A stretch of DNA of 64,000 nucleotides. It comes from Sphingorhabdus pulchriflava (lineage in GTDB: Bacteria; Pseudomonadota; Alphaproteobacteria; Sphingomonadales; Sphingomonadaceae). Location: the NCBI RefSeq assembly GCF_003367235.1, contig NZ_QRGP01000001.1, forward strand, positions 496,001 through 560,000, given 5' to 3'. The translations under genes were made by a program, and so were the position numbers. Of this stretch, positions 10,557 to 34,212 are shown piece after piece. The notes under the pieces are model-generated. The model was not told where the DNA came from, made no database searches, and saw nothing but the letters and a program-made list of their open reading frames with translations. The stretch's first letter is position 1. The number at the start of each line of letters is the position of its first letter.

Positions 10557-10689
10557 AGCGTCATATTAACGTCACATAATTGTTAAATTTATAACACATA
10601 AAGGTTATTTAGAGATTTTCGGAAAAAATAACTACAAAATAGCAATGCAATAAATGAACTTCTCCAAAAAATTCCTTCATTGTGACAGC

Positions 10690-10707
10690 ATGTAATGATA
10701 CTGTAAC
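10690..10707 (+). promoter_or_regulatory. Pho-box-like direct repeat upstream of the small secreted protein
   Basis: ATGTAAT (10690) and CTGTAAC (10701) are spaced by exactly 11 bases, the pattern of PhoB half-sites. The site is only 28 bases before the start codon, which is tight for an activator site, so I am less sure of it than of the other sites in this island. Confidence 0.35.
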
Positions 10708-10735
10708 AAACAGAGGATTTGAGAGGAGAATCACG

Positions 10736-11104
10736 ATGAAATCGCTTGGTATGATGGTTGCGATAGCTGCATCGATGGTCGTGACGCCTGCGGTGCTTGC
10801 GCAGTCGAGCTCAGTCGAAATTGGTTACGAACGCGGCGCATTGGGTTTCGAGGCGCTGATGGCGAATGACAATCAAACCGCATTGCGTCAGATACAGTCG
10901 GCGAAGAGCGTGCCGCACAATGATCCTGCGAGGCTCATCAACCTTGGACGCGCCCATGCGCGCCTTGGGAATGTGTCGCAGGCACAACTGGCCTTTGAGG
11001 CGGCAGCCAATTGCAGAGAACATTTTGATATTGTGCTGTCGAATGGCAAGATCATGAATTCGCGCAAGGCTGCTATGCTCTCGCTACAGTCGCTCAAAAA
11101 ATAG
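10736..11104 (+). CDS. Small exported protein with a TPR-like segment
   Basis: A 122-residue protein with a Sec signal peptide (MKSLGMMVAIAASMVVTPAVLAQ, cut after AQ) and a helical repeat region in which DPARLINLGRAHARLGNVSQAQLAFEAA looks like one tetratricopeptide repeat. It is probably periplasmic and would bind another protein. GAGAGGAG before the ATG at 10736 supports this start over an ATG 54 bases upstream. It stands alone between AT-rich DNA and a terminator. Function is not recognised. Its place next to the lipoprotein/receptor/T2SS block and the Pho-like repeat upstream hint at a shared role, which is only inference. Confidence 0.75.
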   Translation: MKSLGMMVAIAASMVVTPAVLAQSSSVEIGYERGALGFEALMANDNQTALRQIQSAKSVPHNDPARLINLGRAHARLGNVSQAQLAFEAAANCREHFDIVLSNGKIMNSRKAAMLSLQSLKK

Positions 11105-11150
11105 TCTAAAAAGGTTGTCAAACTAGCGTTCGAAAATCTCGCAGCCGTTG

Positions 11151-11223
11151 ATGTAACAGTTTTGAAACATAAGATTCACGAAACCGTCTTCAACTTCGAA
11201 CAATAGAGTCACATCCATCATCT
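11151..11223 (+). promoter_or_regulatory. Array of 11-bp-phased Pho-box-like repeats before the lipoprotein gene
   Basis: Units start every 11 bases at 11151 (ATGTAAC), 11162 (TTGAAAC), 11173 (GATTCAC), 11184 (CCGTCTT), 11195 (TTCGAAC, weak) and 11206 (GAGTCAC), with a poor seventh at 11217. Each resembles the 7-base PhoB half-site (CTGTCAT-like) followed by an AT-rich 4-base spacer. A -10-like CAATAG at 11201-11206 lies ten bases after the 11173-11190 pair. Tandem PhoB/OmpR-type binding is the simplest reading. Confidence 0.5.
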
Positions 11224-11318: not shown

Positions 11319-12833
11319 ATGATAGACCCGAAATTGCGTGGGATAGTTTATGCAACGGCAGCTGCAGGTTTGCTGTCAGCTTGTGGTGCCGATGACATTG
11401 CGTCGCCCGGCGATGGCAGCATCGTAGTTGTGCCGCCACCGGTTGTTGCACCCCCGCCGCCGCCGCCACCCCCGCCGCCGCCTACCGGCCCTGCGGCCAG
11501 CTGTCCCTCGGGCACTGTTGACGCGGGCACAATTGCCAATCGCCGCAACTGCCAGATTTCGGGAACCATCACCGGCGCGCTTCGCTTGCAGAACCTTGCG
11601 GGCACGATCTACTCGCTCAATGGCAAGGTGCAGGTTGGCCAGGATTTGGGTGCTGATCCCAATGCGCCGACAGCAGGCGCACAGTCGGGCGTTCTGACTA
11701 TTGACGCAGGCGTCACCATCTTCGGCGCATCGGGCGCTGACTTCATGGTCGTCAATCGTGGCTCGCAATTGAATGTTGACGGTTCGGCGACCCGCCCGGT
11801 CGTGATGACCAGCCGCAACAACGTGTTGGGCACCTCAACCGCTTCGAGCATCGGCGAATGGGGTGGTCTCGTTATCCTTGGCCGCGCGCCGATTGCCGAC
11901 TGCGCTGATGCTGCTGCCACTGGCGGCACAGTGGGCTGCGTCGCTCCGGTCGAAGGCACCAGCGGTTCGATCTATGGCGGTGCGTCGCCCAACGACAATA
12001 GCGGCACCATCCGTTATCTGCAGGTTCGCTATCCGGGCTTCCGTGTGGATACCAACAACGAACTCAACGGCATCACCATGGCCGGCGTGGGCGCTGGCAC
12101 GATCTTCGAAAATGTCCAGGTGCACAACAGCTCTGACGACGGCATCGAATGGTTCGGTGGACGCGTAAACGGTCGCAACCTCGTGCTGACCGGCAATGAC
12201 GATGACTCACTTGACGTAGACTCGGGCTTCAAGGCCGCCCTGCAGGATATCATCGTGCTGCAGCGCACCGACGGCGGTGACCATATCGTCGAGGCTGACT
12301 CAGCCGGTAACGATACCCGCCTGCCGCGTACTGACGTCCGCTTTGCCAACTTCACCTTCATCGGCCAGACAGGACGCAATACGACCCTGTTGCTCCGTGG
12401 TGGCGGCGACTATTCGTTCGTCAACGGCATCATGACGGGCAGCCCGCGCTGCATCGACATCGATGGCGCTTCGACCGTGCAGGCTGCCAATGCCGCTCAG
12501 GATGAAGACGGCCCGCCAGTGTTCAATTCGATCTTCATGTCGTGCGCAACCGCGTTCCCGGATGACACAGACGTGACCGGCGCGCAGGTGCAGGCGATCT
12601 TCGCAGCCGGCACCAACAACACCGCCAATGGCACCTCGACGCTTTCGGGCACCTTCATCAACGGTGCCAATGAAAATGCGGTCTCGCCCTTCGCAGCAGC
12701 CGGTCTTGCCAGCTACCTGATCAACCGGGCCTATATCGGCGCGGTCCGCGATAGCACCACCAACTGGTGGTCGGGTTGGGTGTGCGGCCTTCCGGGTCAG
12801 GCCTCGTGCCTTGAAATCCCGGCTGCAGGCTAA
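11319..12833 (+). CDS. Proline-linker lipoprotein with predicted right-handed beta-helix; candidate T2SS cargo
   Basis: A 504-residue protein with a lipoprotein signal (AAAGLLSAC, Cys 22), a linker of repeated Pro (VVVPPPVVAPPPP and on), and a long domain of repeating short strands (for example LTIDAGVTIFGASGADFMVV, IFENVQVHNSSDDGIEW) as in parallel beta-helix proteins. A Cys-rich C-terminus ends WVCGLPGQASCLEIP. The start at 11319 has GGAG before it. It lies directly before a TonB receptor and the type II secretion operon. In Caulobacter an extracellular lipoprotein, ElpS, is made on phosphate starvation and needs T2SS. This gene could play a similar part, but I cannot show homology. Ligand or enzyme activity is unknown. 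Confidence 0.8.
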   Translation: MIDPKLRGIVYATAAAGLLSACGADDIASPGDGSIVVVPPPVVAPPPPPPPPPPPTGPAASCPSGTVDAGTIANRRNCQISGTITGALRLQNLAGTIYSLNGKVQVGQDLGADPNAPTAGAQSGVLTIDAGVTIFGASGADFMVVNRGSQLNVDGSATRPVVMTSRNNVLGTSTASSIGEWGGLVILGRAPIADCADAAATGGTVGCVAPVEGTSGSIYGGASPNDNSGTIRYLQVRYPGFRVDTNNELNGITMAGVGAGTIFENVQVHNSSDDGIEWFGGRVNGRNLVLTGNDDDSLDVDSGFKAALQDIIVLQRTDGGDHIVEADSAGNDTRLPRTDVRFANFTFIGQTGRNTTLLLRGGGDYSFVNGIMTGSPRCIDIDGASTVQAANAAQDEDGPPVFNSIFMSCATAFPDDTDVTGAQVQAIFAAGTNNTANGTSTLSGTFINGANENAVSPFAAAGLASYLINRAYIGAVRDSTTNWWSGWVCGLPGQASCLEIPAAG

Positions 12834-12914: not shown

Positions 12915-15635
12915 ATGAAACGCATATTCGGCACCACATTGCTGCTCACTTCCGCTCTTGTCGCTCCGGCGGCACTTGCGCAGGATGTCACCCAGCCAGA
13001 GGCGGCGGAAGAGGCTGCTCCGGCAGTTGAGGAGACCCAGCCTGCAGAGGAAGAGGTCGAAATTTCAGGTCCGGGTGCCAATAGCGGCGAAGGACAAGAG
13101 ATCGTTGTTCAGGGGCGCTATATCCCGAATGTGATCCGCGCGACGCCTGAAGTCGTATCGGTATTGTCGGCGGCAGATATCGCCCGCACGGGTGAAGGTG
13201 AAGTCGCAGGTGCCCTGCAACGCGTCACTGGCCTTTCGGTCGTCGGCGGCAAATTCGTCTATGTGCGCGGACTGGGTGAGCGCTATTCGCTCGCGCTGCT
13301 CAATGGTTCGCCCCTGCCGTCGCCTGAGCCGCTGCGTCGCGTTATCCCGCTCGATCTCTTCCCGACCAGCATTCTGGCCTCAACCGTTGTGCAGAAAAGC
13401 TATTCAGCCGATTACCCGGGTGAATTTGGCGGCGGCGTGATCAACCTGACCACCAAAAATGCACCATCGGAAGGCTTTTTCGATGTCGGTTTCGGCATCG
13501 GAGGCGATACCGAGACTACTTTCGAAACCGGCTACACCTATTTCGGCAGCCGAGGTGACTGGACCGGTTATGACAGCGGCGAACGCTCGCCCAAAGGTGC
13601 TTTCGCCAATGCGCTGGCTACGGGCAACCGCATCCTTGCAGGATCGCAGTTTAGCGTCGCCGATGTGCAGGAAATCACCGCCAGCCTCAGCAATTCTCGC
13701 ACCAATGTGATCCAGCGCAATCTGGATATCCAGCCGAACATCAGCGGTGATATTGCCATGGGCAAGACCTTTCCGATAGGTGTTGTCGATCTGGGTGTCA
13801 TTGCCATTGCCGGTTACAACAACAACTGGCGCACGCGCAGCGGGATGCAGCAGTTTGGTAACGTATCGACCGCCAATGGCAGCTCGTTCCTCGAACCCGC
13901 TCGCGATTTCGACTATCTGTCGACCGAAAACCGCATCATCCTCAATGGCATGATCGGTCTGGGCCTGCAATTTGGCGAGCACAAAATCCGCTTCAACAAT
14001 CTGTTCATTCGCGACACCTTGAAAGAAGCGCGGGTAGCCCTCGGCAACAATTTTGACACGGTAGGGCCCAGCCCGACCCGCCCCGACGCAACGATCCAGA
14101 CCGGCATCACTAGCTGGTTCGAACGCCAGCTTTTTGACAGCCAGATCATCGGCGAATTCCAGTTTGGCGATCTCTCGCTCGATCTCCGCGGCACCTATGC
14201 CAAGTCGCAGCGCGATGCGCCCTATGAACGCTCGTACAGCTATGTCTATAGCGAGGCCTTTCAGGATTATGTGAACGATCTGCGTTCGCCTGGACAGGAC
14301 GCCTTTGTCGCATTCAGTGAGCTGGAAGATACCGTTTGGGCGGGTGGAGCGGATGTGGCCTATAAGCTGCCCACCGAATATCCGCTGACCCTTTCGGCGG
14401 GCTATGCTTATTATGACAATAGCCGCGATTCCATCCGCCGCGATTTCCAGTTCCAGCCTTCGTCGGCACTCAATCCGGCTGTTACACAACAGCGCATCGA
14501 TTATCTTCTGAGCGACTATAACGTCTACAGCTACAATGTGTTGCTGACTGAAACCACAGGTGGCCTTGGTTCAGCGGCCTTTACTGCTGGCCTTAAGGTG
14601 CATGCCGGATATGCCATGCTCGAAATCGAACCAGTCGATGGCGTGACGCTGAACGCGGGTGTACGCTATGAAGACGGTAAGCAGTTTGTCCAGCCGACGG
14701 CGCTGTTCGGCTTGACGCCAGCGCCGCGCACAGATCTCAACAATGATTACTTCCTGCCTGCGGGGACGATTACCTGGAACTTTGCTGAAGACATGCAGCT
14801 TCGCCTTGCTGGTTCGCGCACCATCGCGCGCCCGCAGTTCCGCGAACTTGCGCCGCAGCCTTATCGCGATACCGATTCCGGCCGCACTTTCTTTGGCAAC
14901 CAGTATCTGCAGGACTCAGAGCTGACCAATGTCGAGGCGCGATACGAATGGTATTTCGATCGCGACCAGCGTTTCTCGATCGCAGGCTTCTATAAGGACA
15001 TCACCAACCCGATTGAAAGCGTGGCGGTGCAGGTCGGCTCGAGCTTCTTCACCAGTTTTGCCAATGCGCCGAAAGCGACGTTGTACGGCGTGGAAATCGA
15101 AACCCAGAAATATTTCCCGCTCGAGACTTTGGGTGGTGATTTCTGGCTCAACCGCCGTCTCGCGGTGGTGGCGAACTACACCTACTCGGACTCTGAGATC
15201 AAAATCGGTGCCAATGACACGACGGTCAGCTTTTCGAGCGCGCCCAATTCAGTTCCTGCTTCAACAGTGTTCGACACAAACCGGAAATTGCGCCTAACGG
15301 GTCAGTCAAAGCATCTGGTAAACCTGCAGCTCAGCCTTGAGGATACAGAGAACCTCTCGCAACAAACGCTGCTGCTGACCTATACCAGCCCGCGCGCAAC
15401 CAACCGCGGCCCGAACCTTTCGCCCGACTATATCGAGCGTCCTGGTCTGCGGCTCGACCTCATTCTGCGGCAGGGGCTGAAGATCGCCGGCAAGGAACTG
15501 GAGTTCAAGCTGGAAGGTCGAAACCTGACCGGCACCGACTATCGTGAACAGCAACGGCTGGGGGATTCGGTTCTCAACATCAACAGCTATGATGTTGGCA
15601 CCAGCTATTCGGCCAGCATGACCGTCAAGTTCTGA
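12915..15635 (+). CDS. TonB-dependent receptor paired with the lipoprotein
   Basis: A 906-residue receptor with signal peptide MKRIFGTTLLLTSALVAPA and cleavage near LAQ, an acidic Ala/Glu/Pro linker, a plug domain (GQEIVVQGRYIPNVIRATPE, VYVRGLGERYSLALLNGSPLP, GEFGGGVINLTTK) and a barrel ending TVKF. It lies between the lipoprotein and the gsp operon, and I take the lipoprotein and receptor as a pair that captures and imports a nutrient, perhaps a phosphate compound. No clear ribosome-binding site precedes the ATG, and no promoter is evident after the terminator, so it likely depends on readthrough. The cargo is unknown. Confidence 0.9.
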   Translation: MKRIFGTTLLLTSALVAPAALAQDVTQPEAAEEAAPAVEETQPAEEEVEISGPGANSGEGQEIVVQGRYIPNVIRATPEVVSVLSAADIARTGEGEVAGALQRVTGLSVVGGKFVYVRGLGERYSLALLNGSPLPSPEPLRRVIPLDLFPTSILASTVVQKSYSADYPGEFGGGVINLTTKNAPSEGFFDVGFGIGGDTETTFETGYTYFGSRGDWTGYDSGERSPKGAFANALATGNRILAGSQFSVADVQEITASLSNSRTNVIQRNLDIQPNISGDIAMGKTFPIGVVDLGVIAIAGYNNNWRTRSGMQQFGNVSTANGSSFLEPARDFDYLSTENRIILNGMIGLGLQFGEHKIRFNNLFIRDTLKEARVALGNNFDTVGPSPTRPDATIQTGITSWFERQLFDSQIIGEFQFGDLSLDLRGTYAKSQRDAPYERSYSYVYSEAFQDYVNDLRSPGQDAFVAFSELEDTVWAGGADVAYKLPTEYPLTLSAGYAYYDNSRDSIRRDFQFQPSSALNPAVTQQRIDYLLSDYNVYSYNVLLTETTGGLGSAAFTAGLKVHAGYAMLEIEPVDGVTLNAGVRYEDGKQFVQPTALFGLTPAPRTDLNNDYFLPAGTITWNFAEDMQLRLAGSRTIARPQFRELAPQPYRDTDSGRTFFGNQYLQDSELTNVEARYEWYFDRDQRFSIAGFYKDITNPIESVAVQVGSSFFTSFANAPKATLYGVEIETQKYFPLETLGGDFWLNRRLAVVANYTYSDSEIKIGANDTTVSFSSAPNSVPASTVFDTNRKLRLTGQSKHLVNLQLSLEDTENLSQQTLLLTYTSPRATNRGPNLSPDYIERPGLRLDLILRQGLKIAGKELEFKLEGRNLTGTDYREQQRLGDSVLNINSYDVGTSYSASMTVKF

Positions 15636-15684: not shown

Positions 15685-15724
15685 CTGTCATGAAAATGAA
15701 ACCCTAGAGTCATCGAACTGTCTT
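15685..15724 (+). promoter_or_regulatory. Four-unit Pho-box-like array before gspC
   Basis: Units at 15685 (CTGTCAT), 15696 (ATGAAAC), 15707 (GAGTCAT) and 15718 (CTGTCTT) are spaced by exactly 11 bases. Three are close to PhoB half-sites. It ends 37 bases before the gspC start. It implies that the secretion operon may be switched on by a PhoB-like protein. Confidence 0.55.
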
Positions 15725-15761
15725 CTGGTCAGCCTAACGGCGACTCAGTACAGGAGAATCG

Positions 15762-16583
15762 ATGACACGGGCTTTGCTGCAAAAGGCTGCTGACGGCTTG
15801 GTTTTGGCGTTACGTCGCGTTACGCCTGCTGATGCTGTTGTGGGTCTGGCGCTTGTATTCGCGGCGATCCAGGCGGCCCGGTTGTTCTGGGTGTTGGTCA
15901 CTCCTATCGCCCCGATCGGCGATTGGCGACCCAGCGCGGTGAATGTCGTCCCGGCTTCGGAACGCGGCGCGTTATTTGGCGGTTTCGATCCCTTTTTCCG
16001 CACGGAACAGGTTTCCGCCGACACTGAGGTCGTCACTTCGTTACCGCTGACATTGTTCGGCATTCGCACCAATGAAGCATCAGGCGGGGGCTCTGCGATT
16101 ATCGCAGGGGCAGATGGAGTACAGAATAGTTGGTCGGTTGGCGAAACGATCATGCCCGGCGCGACGCTGCATTCGGTTGCGTTTGATCATGTCGTCATCA
16201 GCAACAATGGCGTGTTGGAAAAAATGTATATTGATCAGTCGGTGCCGGCGGAAAATGTGACACCGAACAGCATAGAGCCGACACCCGAGCCGACCAGCGA
16301 ACCAGCGGTCAAGCTTAACGCACAGACGCTCCAGCAGTCTGTTGGCCTTAATCCGCGCAACGAAGGCGGCAAAGTGACCGGTCTGGTCGTTTCGGCCAAG
16401 GATGACGGGACGATGATATCTGCAGCCGGGCTACAAAAGGGTGACGTCATCACCTCGGTCAACGGCAGACCGGTATCGGCCGCAGCCGAGCTTGCGGCGC
16501 AACTGCGCCCCGGTGCGCGCCTCACTCTCGAAATCGAACGCGGCGCGCAGAAGCTGCCGGTTGCCCTCATTCTGGAACAATGA
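15762..16583 (+). CDS. gspC: Type II secretion protein GspC (inner-membrane, PDZ-like)
   Basis: A 273-residue protein with one N-terminal membrane segment (about 25-48, AVVGLALVFAAIQAARLFWVL), a periplasmic HR domain (LPLTLFGIRTNEASGGGSAII and on) and a C-terminal PDZ-like domain (VTGLVVSAKDDGTMISAAGLQKGDVITSVNGRPV). GspC links the inner-membrane platform to the secretin GspD and helps choose cargo. CAGGAG before the ATG supports the start. It opens an operon of 13 genes running gspC to gspO with overlaps nearly throughout. The Pho-like array lies just upstream. Confidence 0.93.
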   Translation: MTRALLQKAADGLVLALRRVTPADAVVGLALVFAAIQAARLFWVLVTPIAPIGDWRPSAVNVVPASERGALFGGFDPFFRTEQVSADTEVVTSLPLTLFGIRTNEASGGGSAIIAGADGVQNSWSVGETIMPGATLHSVAFDHVVISNNGVLEKMYIDQSVPAENVTPNSIEPTPEPTSEPAVKLNAQTLQQSVGLNPRNEGGKVTGLVVSAKDDGTMISAAGLQKGDVITSVNGRPVSAAAELAAQLRPGARLTLEIERGAQKLPVALILEQ

Positions 16584-18742
16584 TGAAGAACAAATTCCTC
16601 GCTTTGTCGCTCGCGACACTTCTGGCTGCAACCCCGTTGCAGGCGCAGCATATCCTGAATGTTCGCGATGCCGATATCCGCGCTTTTGTGCAGGACGCCG
16701 CGCGCGTCACCGGCCAGACATTCATTGTCGATAGCCGGGTGCAAGGGAAGGTTTCGGTGGTTACCGACCGATCACTCAGCCGGTCTGAATATTTTGAGGT
16801 CTTTCTGTCGACACTGCGCGCTAATGGGCTAGTGGCGATTCCAGTGCGCGGCGGTGGCTATCGTGTCCAGCAGGCCGATGGTGCCGCAACGCAACCGACC
16901 CGGGTTGGTTCAGCGTCCGCGCCTGCCAGTCAGTTTGTCACCGAAGTGTTCCGGTTGCGCTCGATCGATGCACCAGCAGCGGTTGAAACGCTCCGCCCGC
17001 TGATCAGTCGCGAGGGATCGATTACCGCCAACCGCAACGCCAACAGCCTGGTCGTGGCGGACTATGCCGATAATATCCGCCGCATCCGCGACCTCGTCCG
17101 CCAGATCGATCGCGACAGCGCGGCTACGCAGATTGTCGCGCTCGACAATGCCGGAGCACGTGAGATCGCAAGTGCGTTGCAAGGGCTGGCGGGGCAGGGC
17201 GTCGCGGGAGAAGGAGCCCGCCCGCCTGTTACTGTTGTGCCGATAGATTCGAGCAATGCCATTGCTTTACGCGGCGATCCTACTTCGGTTTCTAGATTTG
17301 CCTCTATGGCAAAAGAGCTCGACAAGCGGGCGGAATCCGGAGCTGAAATCCGCGTCTATCAGCTCGAATATGCCAATGCTGAGACACTGCTGCCGACCAT
17401 CCAGTCGCTGATCGGCGAAAACTCCGCCTCGCCGATGCCTACAGCAGCAGTGGCGCAAGGTACTCCGGCCCAATTGGGTGAGGGCGCCGCTCCATCTGCA
17501 GCATCGGCTCCGGTTTCGGTAACGGGGTCGGCCAGTGCGCTAGGTGGGCGTGGCAAGATTGTCGTCAGCCGTTATGAAGGTACCAACGCGATCATCATTG
17601 CAGCGAGCGCCGATACGCAAAAAATGCTGGGTGAACTGATCCGCCAACTCGATTCGCGCCCGCAGCAAGTCTTAGTCGAGGCAATTGTCGTCGAAATCGG
17701 CAATGATGCAGCAAAGCGGTTGGGCGTGCAGTTCCTGATTGGCGGCAAGGATGCGCCTTTTGCGGCCACCAACTATTCGAATGCCGTGCCGAGCATTTTG
17801 ACCATTGGCGGTGCGATTGCAGCAGAAAAACTCGCGACACAAACGACAACGGTGAACGGCAATGTCACGACGACGACCCAGCGCAGCCCGTTGGGCGATA
17901 GTCTGCAACAGGCGGCTGCGCAGTCAATCCTGAATGCAACCGGTGGTTTTGGCGGTTTTGCGCTTGATATCGGCGCTGACGCCATTTTCGGTACGATCAT
18001 CAACGCAGTCCAGAACGACACCGAATCCAATATTCTCGCGACGCCGCATATCGTGACGCTCAACAACCAAAGGGCAAAATTCCTGGTCGGGCAGGATGTG
18101 CCGATCACCACAGGTGAAGCGCTGTCGGACAATTTCGATAACGCCTTCCGTACGGTGCAGCGCAAGGAAGTGGGCATCAAGCTAGAGGTCTTGCCGCAGG
18201 TCAACCAATTTGGAGAGGTCAAACTTTTCGTCAAACAGGAAGTGTCGAGCGTTGCTGGTCCGGTTTCCAACCGATCATCAGACCTGATTTTCAACAAGCG
18301 CGAGTTCGAAACGACATTGACTGTCGGCGATGGCCAGATCCTCGCAATTGGCGGGCTGCTCAACGATGATGAGCGCCGTACCATTGAGAGAATCCCTTTG
18401 CTGTCCGACATACCGATCCTCGGTGAGTTGTTCAAATCGAAGAGCCGGACACGGCGCAAGACCAATCTGACGGTGTTCATCCGGCCCACCATCATTCGCA
18501 GCCGGGCGGATGGCGATGCCCATACTGCCCGCCGATATGACTATGTGCGCGGGCTGCAGCTTGATCGTAATCCGGATATGGAACCTTCTATCGACCAGCT
18601 TTTCCGTGACTATATGGGGGCGCCGCTGCCGGTCGCGCCGACGCTGGAACCCGGCGACACGCTCGTCGGTGCCTCGGCGGATCGGACCCGCCCGGAAGAA
18701 GGTCAGATTCAGCTGCTTCCTGAAGCCGAGGTTAAGCCATGA
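16580..18742 (+). CDS. gspD: Type II secretion outer-membrane secretin GspD
   Basis: A 720-residue secretin with a signal peptide (LALSLATLLAATPLQAQ), an N0 domain (ILNVRDADIRAFVQDAARVTG), repeated N1-N3 domains (about 115-400) and the C-terminal secretin channel (VPITTGEALSD, VGIKLEVLPQVN, TNLTVFIRPTIIRS). It forms the multimeric channel in the outer membrane. No obvious pilotin-binding S domain follows, and no gspS gene is seen, so targeting may differ from enterobacteria. ATG at 16580 overlaps the gspC stop codon; the next ATG (16583) is also possible. Confidence 0.95.
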   Translation: MMKNKFLALSLATLLAATPLQAQHILNVRDADIRAFVQDAARVTGQTFIVDSRVQGKVSVVTDRSLSRSEYFEVFLSTLRANGLVAIPVRGGGYRVQQADGAATQPTRVGSASAPASQFVTEVFRLRSIDAPAAVETLRPLISREGSITANRNANSLVVADYADNIRRIRDLVRQIDRDSAATQIVALDNAGAREIASALQGLAGQGVAGEGARPPVTVVPIDSSNAIALRGDPTSVSRFASMAKELDKRAESGAEIRVYQLEYANAETLLPTIQSLIGENSASPMPTAAVAQGTPAQLGEGAAPSAASAPVSVTGSASALGGRGKIVVSRYEGTNAIIIAASADTQKMLGELIRQLDSRPQQVLVEAIVVEIGNDAAKRLGVQFLIGGKDAPFAATNYSNAVPSILTIGGAIAAEKLATQTTTVNGNVTTTTQRSPLGDSLQQAAAQSILNATGGFGGFALDIGADAIFGTIINAVQNDTESNILATPHIVTLNNQRAKFLVGQDVPITTGEALSDNFDNAFRTVQRKEVGIKLEVLPQVNQFGEVKLFVKQEVSSVAGPVSNRSSDLIFNKREFETTLTVGDGQILAIGGLLNDDERRTIERIPLLSDIPILGELFKSKSRTRRKTNLTVFIRPTIIRSRADGDAHTARRYDYVRGLQLDRNPDMEPSIDQLFRDYMGAPLPVAPTLEPGDTLVGASADRTRPEEGQIQLLPEAEVKP

Positions 18743-22429: not shown

Positions 22430-22787
22430 TCGCCCTGCACAGAATGGCTTCACTCTGATCGAGGTTGTCGTCGCGCTGGCTGTCTTCAGCCTCGCGGCGT
22501 TGGCGTTGATCAAGCTCTCCGCATTTTCGATGCGCACAGGCGGCGACGTGGTCGCGCACGAACTGGCGTGGCAAGTGGCGCGCAATCGTGCGGTAGAAAT
22601 CATCTCCGATCCCGCCATGCCCGCGCTGGGCGAGAGTCAGGGAAGCGAAGCCAATGGCGGGCAGGTTTTCGCATGGAAGCAGATCGCCAAACAGACCGGT
22701 GATGACCGGTTTGTGCGCATCGACATATTGGTCAATGGACAGGCGGGCGGGCGAGCCGCGCTGACCATCGCAAAGCAGCGGCCCTGA
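22419..22787 (+). CDS. gspI: Minor pseudopilin GspI (TTG start)
   Basis: A 122-residue minor pseudopilin with the site QNG before FTLIEVVVALAVFS, Glu at +5. I place the start at TTG 22419 because a strong GGGGGAGG (22405-22412) lies six bases before it and the resulting leader is of normal length. Earlier in-frame starts would overlap gspH by about 60 bases. With GspJ and GspK it forms the tip complex. Confidence 0.9.
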   Translation: MRADRPAQNGFTLIEVVVALAVFSLAALALIKLSAFSMRTGGDVVAHELAWQVARNRAVEIISDPAMPALGESQGSEANGGQVFAWKQIAKQTGDDRFVRIDILVNGQAGGRAALTIAKQRP

Positions 22788-22792
22788 TTTCG

Positions 22793-26693: not shown

Positions 26694-26707
26694 AGCAGGG
26701 CAGCCTA

Positions 26708-27460
26708 TTGCAGCTCCTCGCATCATTGGGTTCGCCGACACTTGCAATGCTCGCTGCCGTGGTCGGGGCGATCATCGGCAGTTATATCGGAGTGCTGGTA
26801 CTGCGATGGCCAGCGGGTGAACCAACGGTTAGCGGACGTTCGCGCTGCGATACTTGCCAGCGCCAACTGGCATGGTTTGATCTGGTACCTTTATTTTCGT
26901 TTCTGATCCTGCGGGGCAGGTGCCGATATTGCAAAGCTGTGATCGACCCCGTGCAGGCATTTGCCGAGTGGGCAGGCGCGATCCTTTGCGGGCTGGCTTT
27001 TCACCTTTTACCTATCGAGAGCGCGGCCGTTTGCGCGCTTTTGTTTCTGATGCTGTTGCCGCTGGCACTGCTTGACGCACGCCATTTCTGGTTGCCCGAC
27101 CGCTTGGTCATCGCTCTGGCGCTGCTTGGCCTGCTGCTCGGCGGAATACCATCAGGCGGTGTCGAGCTGACGATGCGCCTATTGGCTGCCGCATTGGCAT
27201 TTGTTGCGCTCGAAAGCCTCCGCCGATTGTTCCGCAATGTTCGGGGTAGAGAGGGGATGGGGGCTGGCGATCCCAAATTGTTCGCAGCTCTCGCGCTGTG
27301 GCTATCGCCTTACGATATGCCGCTGCTAATCCTGATAGCGTCGACACTGGGGATAGCACTCGCCCTGTTCACAGTAGCCAGAAGGCGGTCGATGCAGCAA
27401 ATGCCATTCGGTTCGCTGCTGGCCGCTGCTGTTGTGGTTTTGGTGTTGGTTCGTCTTTAG
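26708..27460 (+). CDS. gspO: Prepilin peptidase GspO (TTG start)
   Basis: A 250-residue polytopic aspartyl protease that cleaves and N-methylates the pseudopilins GspG-K. The zinc motif (CDTCQ and CRYC) is near residues 47-80. The two catalytic Asp regions are LLDARHFWLPDRL and GMGAGDPKLFAAL. The first codon appears to be TTG 26708, with a weak CAGGG upstream, and no ATG or GTG is better placed. It is the last gene of the gsp operon and meets the convergent glycosyltransferase gene three bases later. Confidence 0.9.
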   Translation: MQLLASLGSPTLAMLAAVVGAIIGSYIGVLVLRWPAGEPTVSGRSRCDTCQRQLAWFDLVPLFSFLILRGRCRYCKAVIDPVQAFAEWAGAILCGLAFHLLPIESAAVCALLFLMLLPLALLDARHFWLPDRLVIALALLGLLLGGIPSGGVELTMRLLAAALAFVALESLRRLFRNVRGREGMGAGDPKLFAALALWLSPYDMPLLILIASTLGIALALFTVARRRSMQQMPFGSLLAAAVVVLVLVRL

Positions 27461-27463: not shown

Positions 27464-28540
27464 CTAGCCTGTTTGAATTTCGACTGGTGTCGTCGCACAT
27501 GATGCTACCGCGTCTGTCAGCGCGTCGACAAACTGGTCACAGCATTTCTCCCAGTCAAAGCTGGCGCCCAGTTCTGCAGCGGCCTTTCGCGACGCGCCCT
27601 GTGCCTTGACGATAGCGGCGGACAGCGAGACATCCAGCGCGCCTGCGGCCTGATCCATCTGGTCATAGATGCCGCGCGAAGAAGGCCCCAATATGTCGAT
27701 CGGCCCTTGCACGGGGAACGCAGCCACCGGCACACCACAGGCCAAAGCTTCAATCAAGACGAGTCCGAATGTGTCAGTCAGGCTGGGGAAGACGAAGACA
27801 TCGGCGCTGCAATAAGCGCGCGCGAGTTGTTCGCCGTGCAGCGCGCCGAGGAAAAACGCTTCTGGAAACTGTTCGCGCAAATCGGCCAGTGCAGGGCCGT
27901 CACCGACTATGATCTTTGTGCCCGCGACGGCAGCACCAAGAAATGCCCCGATATTCTTCTCGGGCGCCACCCGCCCCACATAGAGCAATAACGGCCGCGG
28001 CAGGTGCGCCAGTTCTTCGAGCGGATCATGTCCGGGATGAAACAACTCGCGATCGATTCCGCGTGACCACAACTTGGTCTGGCTGATACCGCGCTGCGCA
28101 AGCTCATCCATCAACCGATAGGTCGAAACCAGTACGCCCTTTGAAGGCTTGTGAAAGCGCCGCATAATCGGCCAGAAGCGGTCGGGCGACAAGCCAGTGC
28201 GTACGGCTGCATAATCCGGAAAACGTGTATGAAAGGCTGTGGTGAAGGGCACATTGTTGGCGATGCACCAGGACCGGGCGGCCCATCCGATCGGCCCTTC
28301 GGTGACGATGTGGACAATGTCCGGCTGGTAGCGGCGCAGCGTGCGGCGGACGCCAAATCGCGGCGCAACAGCCAAGCGGATTTCGCTATAACCTGGAGTG
28401 GGAACAGTGATGAACTGGTCGGGCGAGATCAGCTCGATTTCATAACCCCGGCGTTGCAGGATTGAGACGGTGGTCGCAAGGCTGCGCACGACGCCATTGG
28501 TCTGCGGGAACCATGCGTCGGTGGCGATAGCGATTCTCAT
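27464..28540 (-). CDS. agt: GT4 glycosyltransferase, probable Agt-type glycolipid synthase
   Basis: A 358-residue retaining GT-B glycosyltransferase: N-terminal MRIAIATDAWFPQTNGVVRS, LYVGRVAPEKNI, and SLTDTFGLVLIEALACGVPV with the conserved E-x7-E motif. It overlaps the upstream metallophosphoesterase gene by four bases. In Agrobacterium and relatives, a GT4 enzyme (Agt) next to plcP makes mono- or diglycosyl diacylglycerols when phosphate is scarce. Gene order, size and fold all fit. The sugar donor cannot be told from sequence, and a lipopolysaccharide role is the main alternative. Confidence 0.78.
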   Translation of the reverse strand: MRIAIATDAWFPQTNGVVRSLATTVSILQRRGYEIELISPDQFITVPTPGYSEIRLAVAPRFGVRRTLRRYQPDIVHIVTEGPIGWAARSWCIANNVPFTTAFHTRFPDYAAVRTGLSPDRFWPIMRRFHKPSKGVLVSTYRLMDELAQRGISQTKLWSRGIDRELFHPGHDPLEELAHLPRPLLLYVGRVAPEKNIGAFLGAAVAGTKIIVGDGPALADLREQFPEAFFLGALHGEQLARAYCSADVFVFPSLTDTFGLVLIEALACGVPVAAFPVQGPIDILGPSSRGIYDQMDQAAGALDVSLSAAIVKAQGASRKAAAELGASFDWEKCCDQFVDALTDAVASCATTPVEIQTG

Positions 28541-29412
28541 CCTACTGCCTGCATTTGCGGCTGTTTTGCTCTGGCACGGTGCATTTCAGACCAGTCGAGG
28601 ATCGTCATGGTGCCATCGAATGCCTCGACCAATGCGGTGCAGCTTTCAACCCAGTCGCCGTCATTATAATAGGTAACATCGCCGATCTGTCGGATCTCTG
28701 CGCAATGGATATGGCCGCATACGACTCCGTCAACGCCACGCTCGGCTGCTTCACGAGCGACGGCATCCTCGAATGCACACACATATTGCACCGCATTTTT
28801 GACGCGCTTCTTGAGATAGGAGGACAGCGACCAATAGGGCATCCCCAGCCGCTTGCGGATCGCGTTCAGCCAGACATTGGCGCGCAGCATCAGCGTGTAG
28901 GCCTGATCGCCCAGAAAGGCGAGCCAGCGGGCGTAGAGTACGACACCGTCAAACGCATCACCATGCGTGATCAGCAGGCGTTTGCCGTCCGCTGTTTCGT
29001 GGATGGCTTCCTGCGCGAGCGTGATGCCGCCAAAGCTGAAACCGGCATAGTCGCGCAACATTTCGTCATGATTGCCGACGATGAATACCACGCGTGTTCC
29101 TTTGTGCGCGATTTTCAGGATGCGGCGGACGACTTCATTATGGCTGTCAGGCCAATACCAGCCCTTTTTCAGCCGCCAGCCGTCGATGATGTCACCCACC
29201 AGATAGAGTGTTTCACACTCGACCGAATGGAGAAAATCGAGCAGCAATTCTGCATTGCAGCCTTTTGTACCCAGATGGATATCCGAGATCCAGATGGTGC
29301 GATATTTGCTCTTGGGCCTGAAACTTCGGGGTTCGGGGTGGTTGATCCAGTCGGGCGGTGCAATCGCCGTTGCTTTGTCGATAATCAGATCGGTGGCAGC
29401 ATTTCGTAGCAA
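28537..29412 (-). CDS. plcP: Calcineurin-like metallophosphoesterase, probable PlcP phospholipase C
   Basis: A 291-residue protein with the full metal-binding set: SDIHLG, GDIIDG, GNHDE, THGDAFD and GHIHCAE. The family is often labelled as UDP-2,3-diacylglucosamine diphosphatase (LpxH-like). The alphaproteobacterial branch with FIVGNHDEMLRDYAG is PlcP, which removes the head group from phospholipids to yield diacylglycerol and is PhoB-controlled in rhizobia. It is followed at once by an Agt-like glycosyltransferase that would use that diacylglycerol. A Pho-like pair lies 73-90 bases upstream. A true LpxH role in lipid A synthesis remains possible. Confidence 0.78.
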   Translation of the reverse strand: MLRNAATDLIIDKATAIAPPDWINHPEPRSFRPKSKYRTIWISDIHLGTKGCNAELLLDFLHSVECETLYLVGDIIDGWRLKKGWYWPDSHNEVVRRILKIAHKGTRVVFIVGNHDEMLRDYAGFSFGGITLAQEAIHETADGKRLLITHGDAFDGVVLYARWLAFLGDQAYTLMLRANVWLNAIRKRLGMPYWSLSSYLKKRVKNAVQYVCAFEDAVAREAAERGVDGVVCGHIHCAEIRQIGDVTYYNDGDWVESCTALVEAFDGTMTILDWSEMHRARAKQPQMQAVG

Positions 29413-29532: not shown

Positions 29533-30210
29533 TCAGGGGATCTCAAACACATAGCCGATAGGACGGACCGTGCGGATCACCTCGGGCGCACCAACTTTTT
29601 TGAACGCACGGCGCAGGCGTCCGATCCATACATCAACCGTCCGGTTTTCTATCTCGTCGAGTGGCTTACCCGACAGCTGAATAAGATCTTCGCGTGAAAA
29701 AACCTTGTCAGGGCTATTTGCGAAATGCAGCAGTAGCTGAAATTCATTCGGGGCCAGATTGACGCGCTGTCCCTTATATTTCACCCGATAGGCTTGCGGC
29801 TCAACCACCACGTCGCCTAATTCAATCCTTTCAGCAGTGTCAGAGGGCATGACATGCGATGCACCATGCTCGATACGCCGTAACACCTCTTCAGGCGACA
29901 ACAGCCCGACGACATAATCGTCAGCGCCGGCCTGCATGGCTCGCACCAGCATATCCTTGTCGGCCTGATCGAAAACCATCGTGATGGTAGATTTCTGCGT
30001 GACCGGGTCGGCGCGTAACCGTCTGCACATTTCCAGCCCGGAAATTTCTGGCAGAATGAAATCGACAAAGCACCAGATATCACCGCCTGATTCCAGTGCA
30101 GGCACGGTTGATCCAATGGCAACCAGTGCAATATTTGGCCGCGCCCGTTGCAATTCGACAAACAGCGAAGGGTTCTGTGAAGTGAACAGAACTGTCTTCG
30201 ATCCGGTCAT
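29533..30210 (-). CDS. PhoB/OmpR-family winged-helix regulator with degenerate receiver domain
   Basis: A 225-residue response-regulator-like protein. The C-terminal winged helix is close to PhoB (NEFQLLLHFANSPDKVFSRE, NRTVDVWIGRLRRAFKKV, RTVRPIGYVFEIP). The N-terminal receiver keeps the Asp at residue 50 (CFVDFILPEISG), but the acidic pair at residues 9-12 reads FTSQ, the Thr of the switch is lost (VFDQAD) and the conserved Lys reads Gly (YVVGLLSPE). It probably does not respond to phosphorylation in the usual way. No histidine kinase gene is nearby. Its own promoter region holds a Pho-like box, so it may autoregulate. Confidence 0.87.
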   Translation of the reverse strand: MTGSKTVLFTSQNPSLFVELQRARPNIALVAIGSTVPALESGGDIWCFVDFILPEISGLEMCRRLRADPVTQKSTITMVFDQADKDMLVRAMQAGADDYVVGLLSPEEVLRRIEHGASHVMPSDTAERIELGDVVVEPQAYRVKYKGQRVNLAPNEFQLLLHFANSPDKVFSREDLIQLSGKPLDEIENRTVDVWIGRLRRAFKKVGAPEVIRTVRPIGYVFEIP

Positions 30211-30257
30211 GGCATAAAATCCGCAGGTCTGAGTTAAATCCTAACTGCAACCTTCAA

Positions 30258-30286
30258 ATGACAGAATCGTGACTCTTTGTGTTCAG
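30258..30286 (-). promoter_or_regulatory. Pho-box-like repeat upstream of the PhoB-like regulator
   Basis: On the minus strand, units CTGAACA (30286), GAGTCAC (30275) and CTGTCAT (30264) are spaced by 11 bases. The last two make a close match to a PhoB box. The site lies between the phosphodiesterase stop and the regulator start, 48-76 bases before the ATG. Confidence 0.6.
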
Positions 30287-30324: not shown

Positions 30325-31635
30325 TCAGCGCAGCGCGACGCCGAGTTTGTCTGCCAGCATCGGGGCGATGCTACGCATGTCGATCTCGCCAAGATTTTTG
30401 CCTGCGGTGATGCCTTGGCCCATGATCAGGAAGGAAGACCGCATATTGCCGCCCGACTGGAAATAGCCATGCGTGCCTTTGCTGCCCGATGCCGAGACCA
30501 AGGGCGCATCTTTACCTTTGAAGCCGCCTCCATAAGCACCGAATTCAAAATTGACGTAGAAACTGGCCTTGGGATTACCCCCCCTGCGCGCGATTTCCTT
30601 GCGATCTGCAATCGCCGCGATCCGGTTTGCCGGATCGGATCTAAGCTTTTTGAGCAGGGCTTCGACGCGCGCGACCAATGCTTCATCGTCAGGGTCAGCC
30701 AGCATGATGGCGCTCGAACCGCCGGAGTTCCAAGGGGCGGCCTGCCACTCTTTGATTTTGCCGTCAGCTCCCAGCTTCATCAGCCCGGCATCGATAAAGG
30801 CGCGGTAGAGGTTAATCTCGGTTGTAGTCGTGGCAAAGCCATGATCTGACGCGATCGCGATCACCGCATCCGGATGCACTTTCAGTTGGGCAGCCACCAA
30901 TTTGCCCACAATGGCGTCGATGCGTTCGAGTATATGGTGCGCGTCTTTTGTATCCGGACCTTTTTCATGCTGTTCATGATCTAGTGCAGTGAAATAAGCG
31001 GTCATGAAATCTGGTTTTTCCGCGAGAATCAACGCCTCGGCAAAGTGCGCTCGGTTTTCGTCACCCGCGATGCTCTCATCAATACCCTGCGCATAAGCAA
31101 TGCCTAGCGACGACTCCAGCCTGTCTACCAATCCAGGCGTTGCCAGCACCTTCATCAGCTTGACATCATCCTCATGACCGGTGCGCCAGATTTGCGGCAG
31201 GTTATAGCGGATGGAGGTTTGCCCGACGGTAACGGGCCAGTGAACATTGGCGGTTTTCAAGCCTGCTTTCGCGGCGGCATCCCACAATGTAGGCGCCTTG
31301 AAATCACTGGCATACCAGTACCAGCCCGACTGATTGATCTGCATCGGATCAAAGCCGGTATTGCCGATAATGCCATGCTCGGCGGGGCTCACGCCTGTCA
31401 CCAATGTCGCGTGGCTGGGATAGGTCACCGAAGGCAGCACGCCGGTGACGCCGCTGGCGTAGCTGCCTTCTTTGACGAAACGTTTCAAATTAGGAATGTT
31501 GATGCCCCGCTTTTCGGCTTCGATCACATCGGCGGGTTGCAACCCATCGATAGAGATTAAAAGCACGGGTTCGGCTTGACTGGCGGCAGGAACAAGCGCA
31601 GCCAGCGCGACGATCAAGCGGGGCATCCTGCGCAT
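30325..31635 (-). CDS. Exported nucleotide pyrophosphatase/phosphodiesterase (alkaline phosphatase superfamily)
   Basis: A 436-residue enzyme with a signal peptide (LIVALAALVPAASQA). Metal ligands are visible in ISIDGL (Asp 30), LDHEQHEKGPD, ASDHGFA and KGTHGY, with the nucleophile Thr 71 in SVTYPSH. This matches the NPP family, which hydrolyses nucleotides and phosphodiesters in the periplasm or outside the cell. Its ATG overlaps the stop of the TonB receptor gene (TGATG), so they form one operon. The pair probably takes in and splits a phosphate-containing compound. Confidence 0.9.
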   Translation of the reverse strand: MRRMPRLIVALAALVPAASQAEPVLLISIDGLQPADVIEAEKRGINIPNLKRFVKEGSYASGVTGVLPSVTYPSHATLVTGVSPAEHGIIGNTGFDPMQINQSGWYWYASDFKAPTLWDAAAKAGLKTANVHWPVTVGQTSIRYNLPQIWRTGHEDDVKLMKVLATPGLVDRLESSLGIAYAQGIDESIAGDENRAHFAEALILAEKPDFMTAYFTALDHEQHEKGPDTKDAHHILERIDAIVGKLVAAQLKVHPDAVIAIASDHGFATTTTEINLYRAFIDAGLMKLGADGKIKEWQAAPWNSGGSSAIMLADPDDEALVARVEALLKKLRSDPANRIAAIADRKEIARRGGNPKASFYVNFEFGAYGGGFKGKDAPLVSASGSKGTHGYFQSGGNMRSSFLIMGQGITAGKNLGEIDMRSIAPMLADKLGVALR

Positions 31636-33857
31636 CAGAAACCGACCTTGGCAGTCACAAAGAACTGCTGCGGCGCGCCGGCAAGCAGGGTCTGGTTATC
31701 ACCGCTATTGCCAAAGCCGTTCGACCCGATGGTCGAAACATAGCGCTTGTCGAACAAGTTGGTTGCATTGAGTTGAACCTCGATCGGCTTACGCATACCC
31801 ATGTCAAAGCGATAGCCGAGCGTTGCATCGACGAGCACGCGGCTGCCGACCGACTGGTCATTGGTGTAGGTGAAATACCGCTTGCTCATATAATTGGCAC
31901 CGATGCGGCCAAAGAGACTGTCGCTGTCATACGCGATTTCGCCCTTCAGCATATGCTTTGGCGTATCGACGACGTTCCTACCCTTGATCGGAACGATCGT
32001 GGGTGTGACGCCGGGGATTACCACATTGTCGCGATAGGTGGCGTCGTTGTAGCTATAGGATGCAAATAGCGTCAGCCCGCCGCCGAGGCGCACATCGCCA
32101 GCTGCTTCGAAACCGAGCGAACGCACCGAGCCCACATTTTGCTGGATTGAAGGGTTGCCGACGATACCGGGACCGGTGGGGATGCCGAGCAGGCGGTTGC
32201 GGAAGTTGACATAATAGACGCCCAATACGCCGTTAAAGGTCGCATTGTTGAAACGGGCACCCAACTCGTAAGTATCCGACTCTTCGGGCTTCAAACCGCG
32301 CGCGCGGAGAGCGTTAAAGCCAGCCTGTGTGGTCGAGAAGGGACCGCTGGTCGCCGAGGATACGAAGGCGCGCGTGGCCTGTGTAAATCCGCCGAAAACC
32401 TCTGCATTGCTGCTGAGCTTATAGGCAACACCGGCGTGCGGCTGGAACCAGTCACGCGACTTGATCTTGCCCGCAGCAAGCGAGCCCTGAACGCGGGGAT
32501 CGGCCTCATTATTGACCTGAAAGCCTTTCCAGCCAAGGTTGATCGTCAGATCACCCATGCTGATCTTGTCCTGCACATGATATTGCAGCGTGTCGGTGTT
32601 GAAATCGAACAGCCATTGCGTGAAGAACGGGTTGCGCAGGAATTTTGTGTGATCGAGGCCCGGAGTGGTCAGGCTTTGATAGGCGTAGAAACGGCGGGCC
32701 TGGGTGAAGTCGTTATGCTCGTACCAGCCGCCAACGCTGATCGTGTGATCACCAACTTCGGCCTCAAGTGATCCGAACACGCCGCCGCGCTGGATGTCAT
32801 ATTCTGTGGTACGCGCCGACATCGGAACGCCGTTGGGGCTGGGAACATAAGGTGTGCCCCATGTGCCCTGACCGGTATTGTCGTGGTAATAGGCCTTGAT
32901 CTTAAAGGTCACGCCCTCGTCCAGCGGGGCCGTCAAGCCATAGGCCGCAAGCGTATCCTTACGGAGGCCCGAGGCATCATAATAGCTGTCGTCCAGATTG
33001 TTGATCGGGGCGACGAAAACACCCTGCGCTGCGGCGATGGCCTTTGCATAATCCGGGAAATAATTGTCATGATCATAACCCAGACGGCGGATCATCTCGA
33101 GCGACAGATCCTGATAATCCTGCTCGGCGCGGTCCGAATAGCTGAAATAGGCATCAAATTCGGCTTGGCCCACCGGAATGATCGCCTTGGCGTTGATCAT
33201 CCAGTTGCGCTGGTCACCGCCGCCCTTCCATTTTTCGGCATTGTGATAGGTGCCCGAGATAAAACCGCGAATGCCATCGCTCTCGCCAAAATTGACGCGG
33301 GCAAATGCGCGGATAGTGTTTTCCGATCCATAGGTCAGATTGGCATCGGCGCCAAAACCTTCGGTCGGGTCATAGGAAAAGAACTCGAGCGTGCCGCCGA
33401 GATTGTTGGTCGATTGCGTGCCGATTGAACCGGCGCCCTGCGAAACGCGTGTGATGCCGATATTTTCCGGCGCAATCGCGCGGCCAATGTGCAGGCCGTT
33501 ATTGTTGCCGTAGGTTGAATCGCCAAGCGGTATGCCATCAAGCGTGTAGCCGAGCTGGTTCTGGTTGAAGCCCCGGATCGTTACGCGGCTCGACCATTCA
33601 TAGGTGCCGAACGGGTCAGCCGACTGGAAATTGACGCTGGGTAGCTTTTCGATCGCCTTGAGCGGGCTGGTACCGGGCGCGAGGATCGTGACATCCTCGG
33701 TCTTGAGTTCTTGTACCTGACGGGTCTGGCCTTGGCCGAAGACGACAATCTCGCCCTCTGCAGTTGCTTCATTAGCGGCGGGTGCTGTTTGCTGGGCGAA
33801 TGCCGGCGCTGAAACTAGCGCCGAAGTCGAAAGCAGGAAGAGAGTGACGATACGCAT
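31635..33857 (-). CDS. TonB-dependent receptor, co-transcribed with the phosphodiesterase
   Basis: A 740-residue receptor with signal peptide (MRIVTLFLLSTSALVSAPAFAQ), a plug domain (EGEIVVFGQGQTRQVQELK, LKAIEKLPSVNF, SSRVTIRGFNQNQLGYTLDG) and a barrel ending FFVTAKVGF. Translational coupling with the phosphodiesterase suggests uptake of nucleotides or other phosphoesters. A phased Pho-like array lies about 70-110 bases upstream. The ligand is not known. Confidence 0.92.
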   Translation of the reverse strand: MRIVTLFLLSTSALVSAPAFAQQTAPAANEATAEGEIVVFGQGQTRQVQELKTEDVTILAPGTSPLKAIEKLPSVNFQSADPFGTYEWSSRVTIRGFNQNQLGYTLDGIPLGDSTYGNNNGLHIGRAIAPENIGITRVSQGAGSIGTQSTNNLGGTLEFFSYDPTEGFGADANLTYGSENTIRAFARVNFGESDGIRGFISGTYHNAEKWKGGGDQRNWMINAKAIIPVGQAEFDAYFSYSDRAEQDYQDLSLEMIRRLGYDHDNYFPDYAKAIAAAQGVFVAPINNLDDSYYDASGLRKDTLAAYGLTAPLDEGVTFKIKAYYHDNTGQGTWGTPYVPSPNGVPMSARTTEYDIQRGGVFGSLEAEVGDHTISVGGWYEHNDFTQARRFYAYQSLTTPGLDHTKFLRNPFFTQWLFDFNTDTLQYHVQDKISMGDLTINLGWKGFQVNNEADPRVQGSLAAGKIKSRDWFQPHAGVAYKLSSNAEVFGGFTQATRAFVSSATSGPFSTTQAGFNALRARGLKPEESDTYELGARFNNATFNGVLGVYYVNFRNRLLGIPTGPGIVGNPSIQQNVGSVRSLGFEAAGDVRLGGGLTLFASYSYNDATYRDNVVIPGVTPTIVPIKGRNVVDTPKHMLKGEIAYDSDSLFGRIGANYMSKRYFTYTNDQSVGSRVLVDATLGYRFDMGMRKPIEVQLNATNLFDKRYVSTIGSNGFGNSGDNQTLLAGAPQQFFVTAKVGF

Positions 33858-33927
33858 GGTTTTCCCTCGCAGTTGTTATTGCGAGGCGCGCATTAGGCGC
33901 GTGCTGTTGCGATTCGGCGTTGGAATC

Positions 33928-33967
33928 GTGACAGTTTGGCTAAGGCTTAAAGATAGTAAAATGACAA
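33928..33967 (-). promoter_or_regulatory. Pho-box-like array upstream of the receptor-phosphodiesterase operon
   Basis: On the minus strand, units TTGTCAT (33967), CTATCTT (33956), CCTTAGC (33945, weak) and CTGTCAC (33934) start at exact 11-base steps. Two of the four are near-perfect PhoB half-sites. This is the same design as the gspC and lipoprotein sites. Confidence 0.58.
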
Positions 33968-34212
33968 CGGCCATTGCCGTCACCGCATTTTCTCCAGTTT
34001 CATCGCTATACTGTTCTACAGATTTGTGAACGCAGCCGACGCTGGGCAGCTTCGCTGAAACGCAGCGATTGGTGCAGGGCGAACGGCAGCTTAGCTGCGC
34101 CGTGGATCGATGACAATCATGCGCCGTTGTGGGTCCTGGCCAATGGCCGACTTCGCATCGAGCGCACCGACAAAGCCACGACGCATGTAAGGACGCAAAT
34201 CAAAAGAATGAG
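33968..34212. other. Intergenic stretch with no recognised feature
   Basis: Between the Pho-like array and the tRNA gene I see no gene or repeat. A forward frame stays open across it (33974-34351) but runs through the tRNA and has no ribosome-binding site. Confidence 0.5.

Follow-up and report, generated by a model that had tools for sequence, protein, structure and literature searches.

A putative phosphate-starvation island with an atypical PhoB paralog in Sphingorhabdus pulchriflava

The window analysed here is a 64,000-nucleotide stretch from the genome of the water bacterium Sphingorhabdus pulchriflava (G000; 3.22 Mb in 6 contigs), corresponding to contig C1, positions 496001-560000. Between 10.7 and 33.9 kb of the window a plus-strand group of genes is followed by a convergent minus-strand group, and profile matches bear out the gene content that a sequence-only reading had described there: a type II secretion system (T2SS), a lipoprotein, TonB-dependent receptors, a phosphodiesterase, a PhoB-like regulator and a plcP-agt pair. 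We interpret this region, with a probability of about 60%, as an island for phosphate starvation in which two gene groups converge, driven by PhoB and provided with a feed-forward regulator. The interpretation builds on gene content, synteny, the statistics and conservation of PHO-type sites, the residues lost from the regulator, and the association of this protein with a particular operator. Its most interesting piece is the atypical PhoB paralog, together with the candidate operator of this protein in related genomes.

Site scores derive from an 18-bp PHO matrix (consensus TGTCATAAAACTGTCACA, 11-bp phased), learned by expectation maximization from 30 pstS promoters of the family; the training loci were chosen out of 117 genomes with a pstS match, the window being excluded. 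The plus-strand group starts with a gene for a small tetratricopeptide repeat (TPR) protein (10736..11104), which matches TPR_9 below the cut-off and has a signal-peptide-like start, as read by eye; its relatives lie beside or near elpS in other genomes. Its promoter contains a PHO box on the plus strand (10691..10708, score 18.5) and, more distally on the same strand, tandem 11-bp-phased PHO-like half-sites (10559..10587, scores 14.6 and 10.9). The next gene (11319..12833, plus strand) codes for an ElpS-type lipoprotein, recognized by its lipobox with Cys22, an invariant acidic cluster and its position, that of cc0170 in the Caulobacter tandem; a weak PHO-like pair (score 11.4) is found in its promoter on the minus strand (11152..11169). 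A TonB-dependent receptor, tbdr1, follows in the position of cc0171 (12915..15635, plus strand; PF00593, PF07715). The T2SS operon, gspC-gspN plus the prepilin peptidase gene gspO, occupies 15762..27460 of the plus strand, and four 11-bp-phased PHO half-sites precede gspC on that strand (15686..15725, scores 20.3 and 9.3). Components C, D, E, F, G, I, J, K, M, N and the peptidase were identified by Pfam; gspL had no match in the Pfam scan and is named by position.

All genes of the second group lie on the minus strand. They code for another TonB-dependent receptor, tbdr2 (31635..33857; PF00593, PF07715); for pde, a member of the phosphodiesterase/nucleotide pyrophosphatase family (30325..31635; PF01663) with a signal-peptide-like start, read by eye, whose nearest solved chains are NPP enzymes, aligned mainly over residues 10-152; for the atypical PhoB paralog (29533..30210), which has lost the acidic pair, Thr and Lys of the receiver and kept its Asp; for a plcP-like metallophosphoesterase (28537..29412; PF00149, PF12850); and for an agt-like GT4 glycosyltransferase (27464..28540; PF13439, PF13692). 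A weak PHO-like pair (30257..30274, minus strand, score 9.8) is present in the regulator promoter. Since these five genes overlap or are separated by gaps of at most 120 bp, they may form one transcript. Lipid remodelling by PlcP and Agt is exemplified by rhizobia, and the two products encoded here are candidate enzymes for a swap of phospholipid for glycolipid. The GC content is even over the window (0.543-0.599); a tRNA-Arg (TCT) gene is located just past the right edge of the island (34213-34289).

The three best matrix matches in the whole 64 kb are those at 15686 before gspC (20.3) and at 10691 and 10559 before the small gene (18.5 and 14.6); as a positive control, the pst region of the same genome scores 21.1. 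First-order Markov resampling of the window gave an expectation of 0.14 matches at a score of at least 18, against 2 found; at 14 or above the figures are 1.1 and 3, and at 10 or above 6.4 and 9, thus only the highest scores stand out and the lower cut-offs are not clearly enriched. Resampling of single promoters gave p values of 0.0005 for gspC, 0.0045 for the small gene, 0.0145 for elpS and 0.023 for the regulator. The exact pattern TGTMAYN5TGTMAY occurs at two sites in the 3.22-Mb genome, namely position 10691 of the window and the pst locus; with one mismatch there are 71 sites, versus 49 for the backward control, and five of them fall within 506691-526274, a span of 20 kb between the small gene and the regulator. 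Of these five, one is inside the elpS gene.

The physical union of the island genes is real and conserved, as the sequence-only reading had proposed. G411, a single-contig genome from another species of the genus, carries the complete island in the same order, with an elpS 45% and a gspD 86% identical to those of the window; in G404, of the same genus, the island is kept up to the contig end; in G050, of another genus, T2SS-tbdr1-elpS, gspO, tbdr2-pde and plcP-agt are found within about 27 kb, rearranged and without the regulator. In all three genomes tbdr2 also adjoins pde. A family sample of 119 genomes contains elpS in 85, plcP in 86 and gspD in 45; in 25 of these 45, the own genome included, no more than 10 kb separate gspD from elpS. 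The distance between elpS and plcP is at most 10 kb in G050, G113, G101 and G030, with elpS beside the plcP-agt pair in the last three. With a 5-kb limit, PstS paralogs are neighbours of elpS in G067, G088 and G008, at distances of up to about 3 kb. The plcP-agt pair itself is intact in 20/20 fetched plcP loci.

As for the phased sites, their conservation between genomes is clear for gspC and the small gene and partial for elpS and the regulator. In G411 the promoters score 20.3 (gspC), 18.5 (small gene), 15.2 (elpS), 15.0 (regulator) and 8.1 (plcP), and that of tbdr2 scores 10.0 on the opposite strand; the values are 21.3 (gspC), 9.8 (regulator) and 10.1 (plcP) in G404, and 21.9 (gspC) and 20.2 (elpS) in G050. 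G437 has a regulator score of 9.8 and a small-gene box of 18.5 at the same place as in the window and in G411; a further metagenome-assembled contig has the same genes as contig C176 of G437 and is not independent of it. The four half-sites before gspC form an aligned conserved block in the window, G411, G404 and G437. Over 60 family loci, a scan of intergenic DNA found scores of at least 14 for 17/19 small genes, 15/21 regulators and 19/42 elpS genes, compared with 5/393 control promoters of other genes and none for tbdr1 (0/36) or gspD (0/8); among the 21 regulator promoters, no more than two belong to the typical PhoB genes of G012 and G053, and p values would overstate the case because the loci are related. 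For plcP, 10/20 family loci reach 14 in the 330 bp upstream, whether intergenic or not, versus 2.4% of random segments. Thirty pstC loci and 19 of 20 pst regions were retrieved as well and enter none of the counts given here.

The regulator of the window, called PhoB-like in the sequence-only reading, is a PhoB paralog and not the equivalent of PhoB. This identity is ruled out by its score (148.3 bits versus a PhoB cut-off of 296.2 in TIGR02154), by the lost receiver residues and by the presence of the true PhoB at C1:2061162 (323.5 bits) in the pst locus (C1:2056-2062 kb). No kinase or pst family was detected among the scanned neighbours of the window regulator. Translated searches placed an atypical regulator next to elpS-tbdr1 in 34 of the 118 other genomes of the family (20/20 and then 13/13, plus G009, fetched as a control). 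When these 34 proteins were aligned with those of the window and G093, none of the 36 had E9, D10, T83 or K105; Asp53 is kept in 35, window included, and His198 is replaced by Trp in 35. Conversely, the true PhoB of the same genome retains the acidic pair, Thr and Lys. We take Asp53 to be the phospho-acceptor, and the acidic pair, Thr83 and Lys105 to be among the residues by which a PhoB is normally switched on. The DNA-binding domain is close to that of PhoB (1gxp was matched). In a tree, 22 atypical proteins group in a single clade, separate from three typical PhoBs, with support 100/100.

Down to 1e-38 there are 34 regulator matches outside the own genome, 33 of which lie within 6.5 kb of an elpS match; the match of G054 is located 3.5 kb from pstC and is therefore an ordinary PhoB. 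In a class-wide sample of 289 genomes the profile reached 1e-55 in just two members of this family, the own genome and G014. In G053 (L132:11231-11908) and G012 (L137:13287-13994) elpS adjoins a PhoB paralog of the typical, intact kind; considered as orthologs, these two were rejected on alignment and left out of the 34. Some further atypical regulators of the genus are not near elpS but near a mannose-1-phosphate guanylyltransferase-like or XRE-type gene (L247:9851-10573; L249 near 19361; the L251/L252 boundary), gene names being read here from translations.

Loci with the regulator beside elpS have a further element. Their small/elpS intergenic region contains four half-sites at offsets 0, 11, 19 and 30, which gives two pairs with 11-bp phase and a step of 8 bp between the pairs; the half-sites match the PHO matrix. 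The pstS promoters prefer offsets 11 and 22, and with the new spacing 1/30 of them exceeds 20. The operator scores above 22 in 19/20 of the defining loci; among 13 held-out loci nine score above 22 and 12 at least 18, and G009 scores 7.1. Conversely, 0/22 elpS loci without the atypical regulator are above 22 (maximum 15.1), as are 0/6 further loci of this kind, two of which reach 18.1 and 19.4. When all long loci were scanned, 22 was exceeded at 20 places, of which 19 belong to the module and one does not; a score of 24.9 before an XRE-type gene in L249, outside the module, was taken as chance.

A whole-genome search for the pattern, allowing up to two mismatches, covered 33 regulator genomes (20 of them defining), the own genome, G411 and 19 genomes without the regulator. 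Exactly one site was found in 31/33 regulator genomes (11/13 of the held-out ones), while none occurred in the 19 others, and the backward pattern gave none. The site lies at the small/elpS intergenic region in 30 of the 31; in G006 the sole operator is directly before a relocated small TPR gene (L292:1126-1506), on a contig other than that of elpS. Where the fetched stretch of a regulator locus includes the small gene, the score is at least 18 (31/31); where it does not, this score is never reached (0/3; L057, L274, L277). These counts, together with the 0/19, indicate that the operator occurs where both the small TPR gene and the regulator do. The relation is an association, and the atypical protein is a candidate for binding the operator.

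The ElpS-type lipoprotein has no Pfam or NCBIfam match, and a sequence search of the PDB gave nothing convincing. Columns scored over 40 homologs contain, besides Cys22, eight further invariant cysteines, and an invariant acidic cluster (D273, D274, E277, D295, D296, D299, D301, E325, D327) where a metal or ligand might be bound. Homologs occur in Pseudoalteromonas, Alteromonas and Bacteroides, in agreement with the wide spread reported for Caulobacter ElpS (PMC2996285).

An ElpS homolog was present in 21 plasmid records, and the gene neighbourhoods were viewed in eight. On plasmid pBGP9 of Alteromonas macleodii (L259, NZ_OX359244.1 15166-26226), phoB, phoR, PstS, a 2-oxoglutarate oxygenase, the ElpS homolog and a TonB receptor form one run, which is an independent link of the ElpS-receptor pair to phosphate, in Gammaproteobacteria. 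Large Pseudoalteromonas plasmids (L258, L261, L263) have the order DUF3450-ExbB-ExbB-ExbD-TonB-(TPR or hypothetical)-ElpS homolog-TonB receptor, and this trio of TPR, ElpS and receptor may parallel the small TPR gene of the island. Plasmids of Indioceanicola and Sphingomonas carry a T2SS with an ElpS homolog; a winged-helix gene beside ElpS on the former is not a relative of the atypical regulator. No receptor is annotated on the Marinobacter plasmid, and the Phocaeicola record is unannotated.

The secretion genes and the regulator rarely occur together. gspD was found at E ≤ 1e-100, a cut-off that would miss more distant T2SS, in 1 of the 34 genomes with regulator and elpS (G111) versus 43 of the 84 other non-own genomes; the combination seen in the window, G411 and G404 is unusual. 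In Caulobacter, ElpS reaches the surface without the T2SS, which is needed for its release (PMC2996285); the near-absence of the T2SS from the regulator genomes fits such a role in release, rather than as surface carrier. The contrast may be due in part to common ancestry.

Taken together, these data are compatible with the following scheme, in which PhoB binding, the phosphate response, phosphorylation independence, the sign of regulation, the extent of the operon and the enzyme functions are predicted from sequence. With falling phosphate, the true PhoB, encoded at pst, would bind the boxes at the small gene, elpS, gspC and the regulator, so that the T2SS, the surface lipoprotein ElpS and its TonB receptor would be built. 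The run tbdr2-pde-regulator-plcP-agt would also be made, and phosphoesters might then be taken up and split, with phospholipid replaced by glycolipid. The atypical regulator would be a feed-forward element tuning the ElpS-receptor-TPR branch; its candidate target, in 31 related genomes, would be the single four-half-site operator at the small TPR gene. Since the parts for phosphorylation switching are lost, the amount of regulator, set by PhoB through the regulator's own PHO box, is probably the signal. More broadly, we give roughly even odds to the idea that sphingomonads possess a subfamily of PhoB paralogs that is phosphorylation-independent, controlled by PHO boxes and able to read a new composite operator, which each genome would have once, at a TPR gene of the ElpS-receptor module, forming a dedicated, level-driven branch of the phosphate response which in the genus of the window has been fused to the T2SS, phosphoester uptake and lipid remodelling.

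Several observations weigh against the phosphate-island reading. Of the six start regions for which the sequence-only reading had claimed phased sites, gspC and the small gene are strong, elpS (11.4) and the regulator (9.8) are weak in the window, and those of plcP (score 5.1, p 0.065) and tbdr2-pde (score 5.4, p 0.15) have no box by per-promoter resampling; its idea of common phosphate-type control is thus supported for four promoters out of six, weakly so for two of these. The gspC box reaches 14 in just 4/9 family loci in the intergenic scan, high scores are also found off promoters (18.0 in the pde gene of G404, 14.3 in tbdr1 of G411) and G411 has a score of 16.8 outside the island; moreover, the sequences compared are related and hence not independent. 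Within the genus the island has a patchy distribution, a regulator match at 1e-40 being found in just 7/45 genomes, own included, and within the family sample elpS is near plcP in only 4 other genomes (within 10 kb). The window regulator is a long-branch member of its clade, and the link to elpS has exceptions: the atypical regulator of G093 is beside plcP in a genome without an elpS match, those of G425, G412 and the second copy of G404 are without elpS in the fetched stretch, and that of G410 is on an 8.6-kb contig. Finally, the operator pattern is absent from the whole genomes of S. pulchriflava (G000) and G411, and cc0171, the Caulobacter counterpart of tbdr1, is reported to be constitutive. 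The missing plcP and tbdr2 sites and the patchy distribution would suit unrelated genes that cluster neutrally, their 11-bp repeats being due to chance. This is highly improbable and largely refuted by G411, which keeps the order although its elpS is just 45% identical, and by G050, which keeps the genes together although rearranged.

The part played by the regulator can be seen in other ways. As a tentative alternative, it could be a brake that holds PHO half-sites without phosphorylation and limits PhoB at small/elpS until outcompeted; the match of the operator half-sites to the PHO matrix, a DNA-binding domain near PhoB and yet with the His198 change, and the 8-bp junction, which disrupts the 11/22 phase of pstS promoters, all agree with this, but the sign is not readable from sequence and the lack of the operator where the regulator is missing suits a positive partner equally. 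It is doubtful that the sites are ordinary PhoB boxes and the regulator a bystander, or a protein controlling something else. The operator-free genomes G000 and G411 speak for it, as do PHO boxes at elpS in loci without the atypical regulator (L121 21.1, L123 19.7, L169 20.2); against it stand the special operator in 31/33 regulator genomes and 0/19 others, and the six further regulator-less loci, none above 22 even if two come near. That the ElpS-receptor pair serves another scarce nutrient, such as a metal or organic carbon, with plcP-agt nearby by chance, appears improbable: ElpS lacks a family match, and on a replicon of Pseudoalteromonas one homolog is only a few genes away from genes for a siderophore, but the PHO boxes, the PstS paralogs near elpS in three genomes, the Alteromonas macleodii run and the induction of Caulobacter ElpS by phosphate starvation (PMC2996285) argue for phosphate.

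On the reading of the locus as a phosphate-starvation island, the ElpS-receptor pair, whose lipoprotein has homologs from Alphaproteobacteria to Bacteroides, is tied to phosphate by gene order and control sites, and the relatives offer a natural one-operator, one-regulator system for the study of a dead-switch PhoB relative in the phosphate response. In the open-access literature we found no paper on phosphate starvation in Sphingorhabdus and no description of the physical union, of a group of PhoB paralogs next to elpS, of the four-half-site operator or of an atypical regulator in sphingomonads. The novelty is nevertheless smaller than the sequence-only reading claimed, the tandem and the Caulobacter regulon being already published (PMC2996285, PMC11208175).

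The elpS-cc0171-T2SS tandem has been named in Caulobacter crescentus, Sphingomonas alaskensis, Xanthomonas campestris and Hyphomonas neptunium (PMC2996285). The island resembles it in the order lipoprotein, TonB receptor, gspC, a likeness read from gene order and the cc0170 position, and differs from it by the addition of plcP-agt, pde-tbdr2 and the atypical PhoB paralog. The Caulobacter PhoB regulon includes the T2SS, TonB receptors, phospholipase C, a phosphodiesterase and a nucleotide pyrophosphatase (PMC11208175), and the gene content of the island matches it; however, what the excerpts of that paper treat is a regulon rather than a gene cluster, and in them there is no mention of a PhoB paralog whose receiver is degenerate. 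As in known PlcP-Agt systems (for the subject see PMC4796936, PMC9239053), a metallophosphoesterase and a GT4 enzyme adjoin each other, with activities that are here predicted; unlike them, the pair is joined to secretion and receptor genes. The TBDR-pTFP manganese module of Stenotrophomonas (PMC13217887) has a thioredoxin-fold partner and is unrelated to the ElpS-receptor pair, and PMC9123166, which treats PhoB of a Rhizobium, added nothing to the reading of the island. The regulator itself is similar to ChxR and HP1043 (PMC3960148, PMC8345958) in being an orphan with a degenerate receiver and predicted phosphorylation independence. Unlike these, the Sphingomonadaceae group is tied to a phosphate module, keeps the receiver Asp and, in most of its members, has a four-half-site operator of its own.

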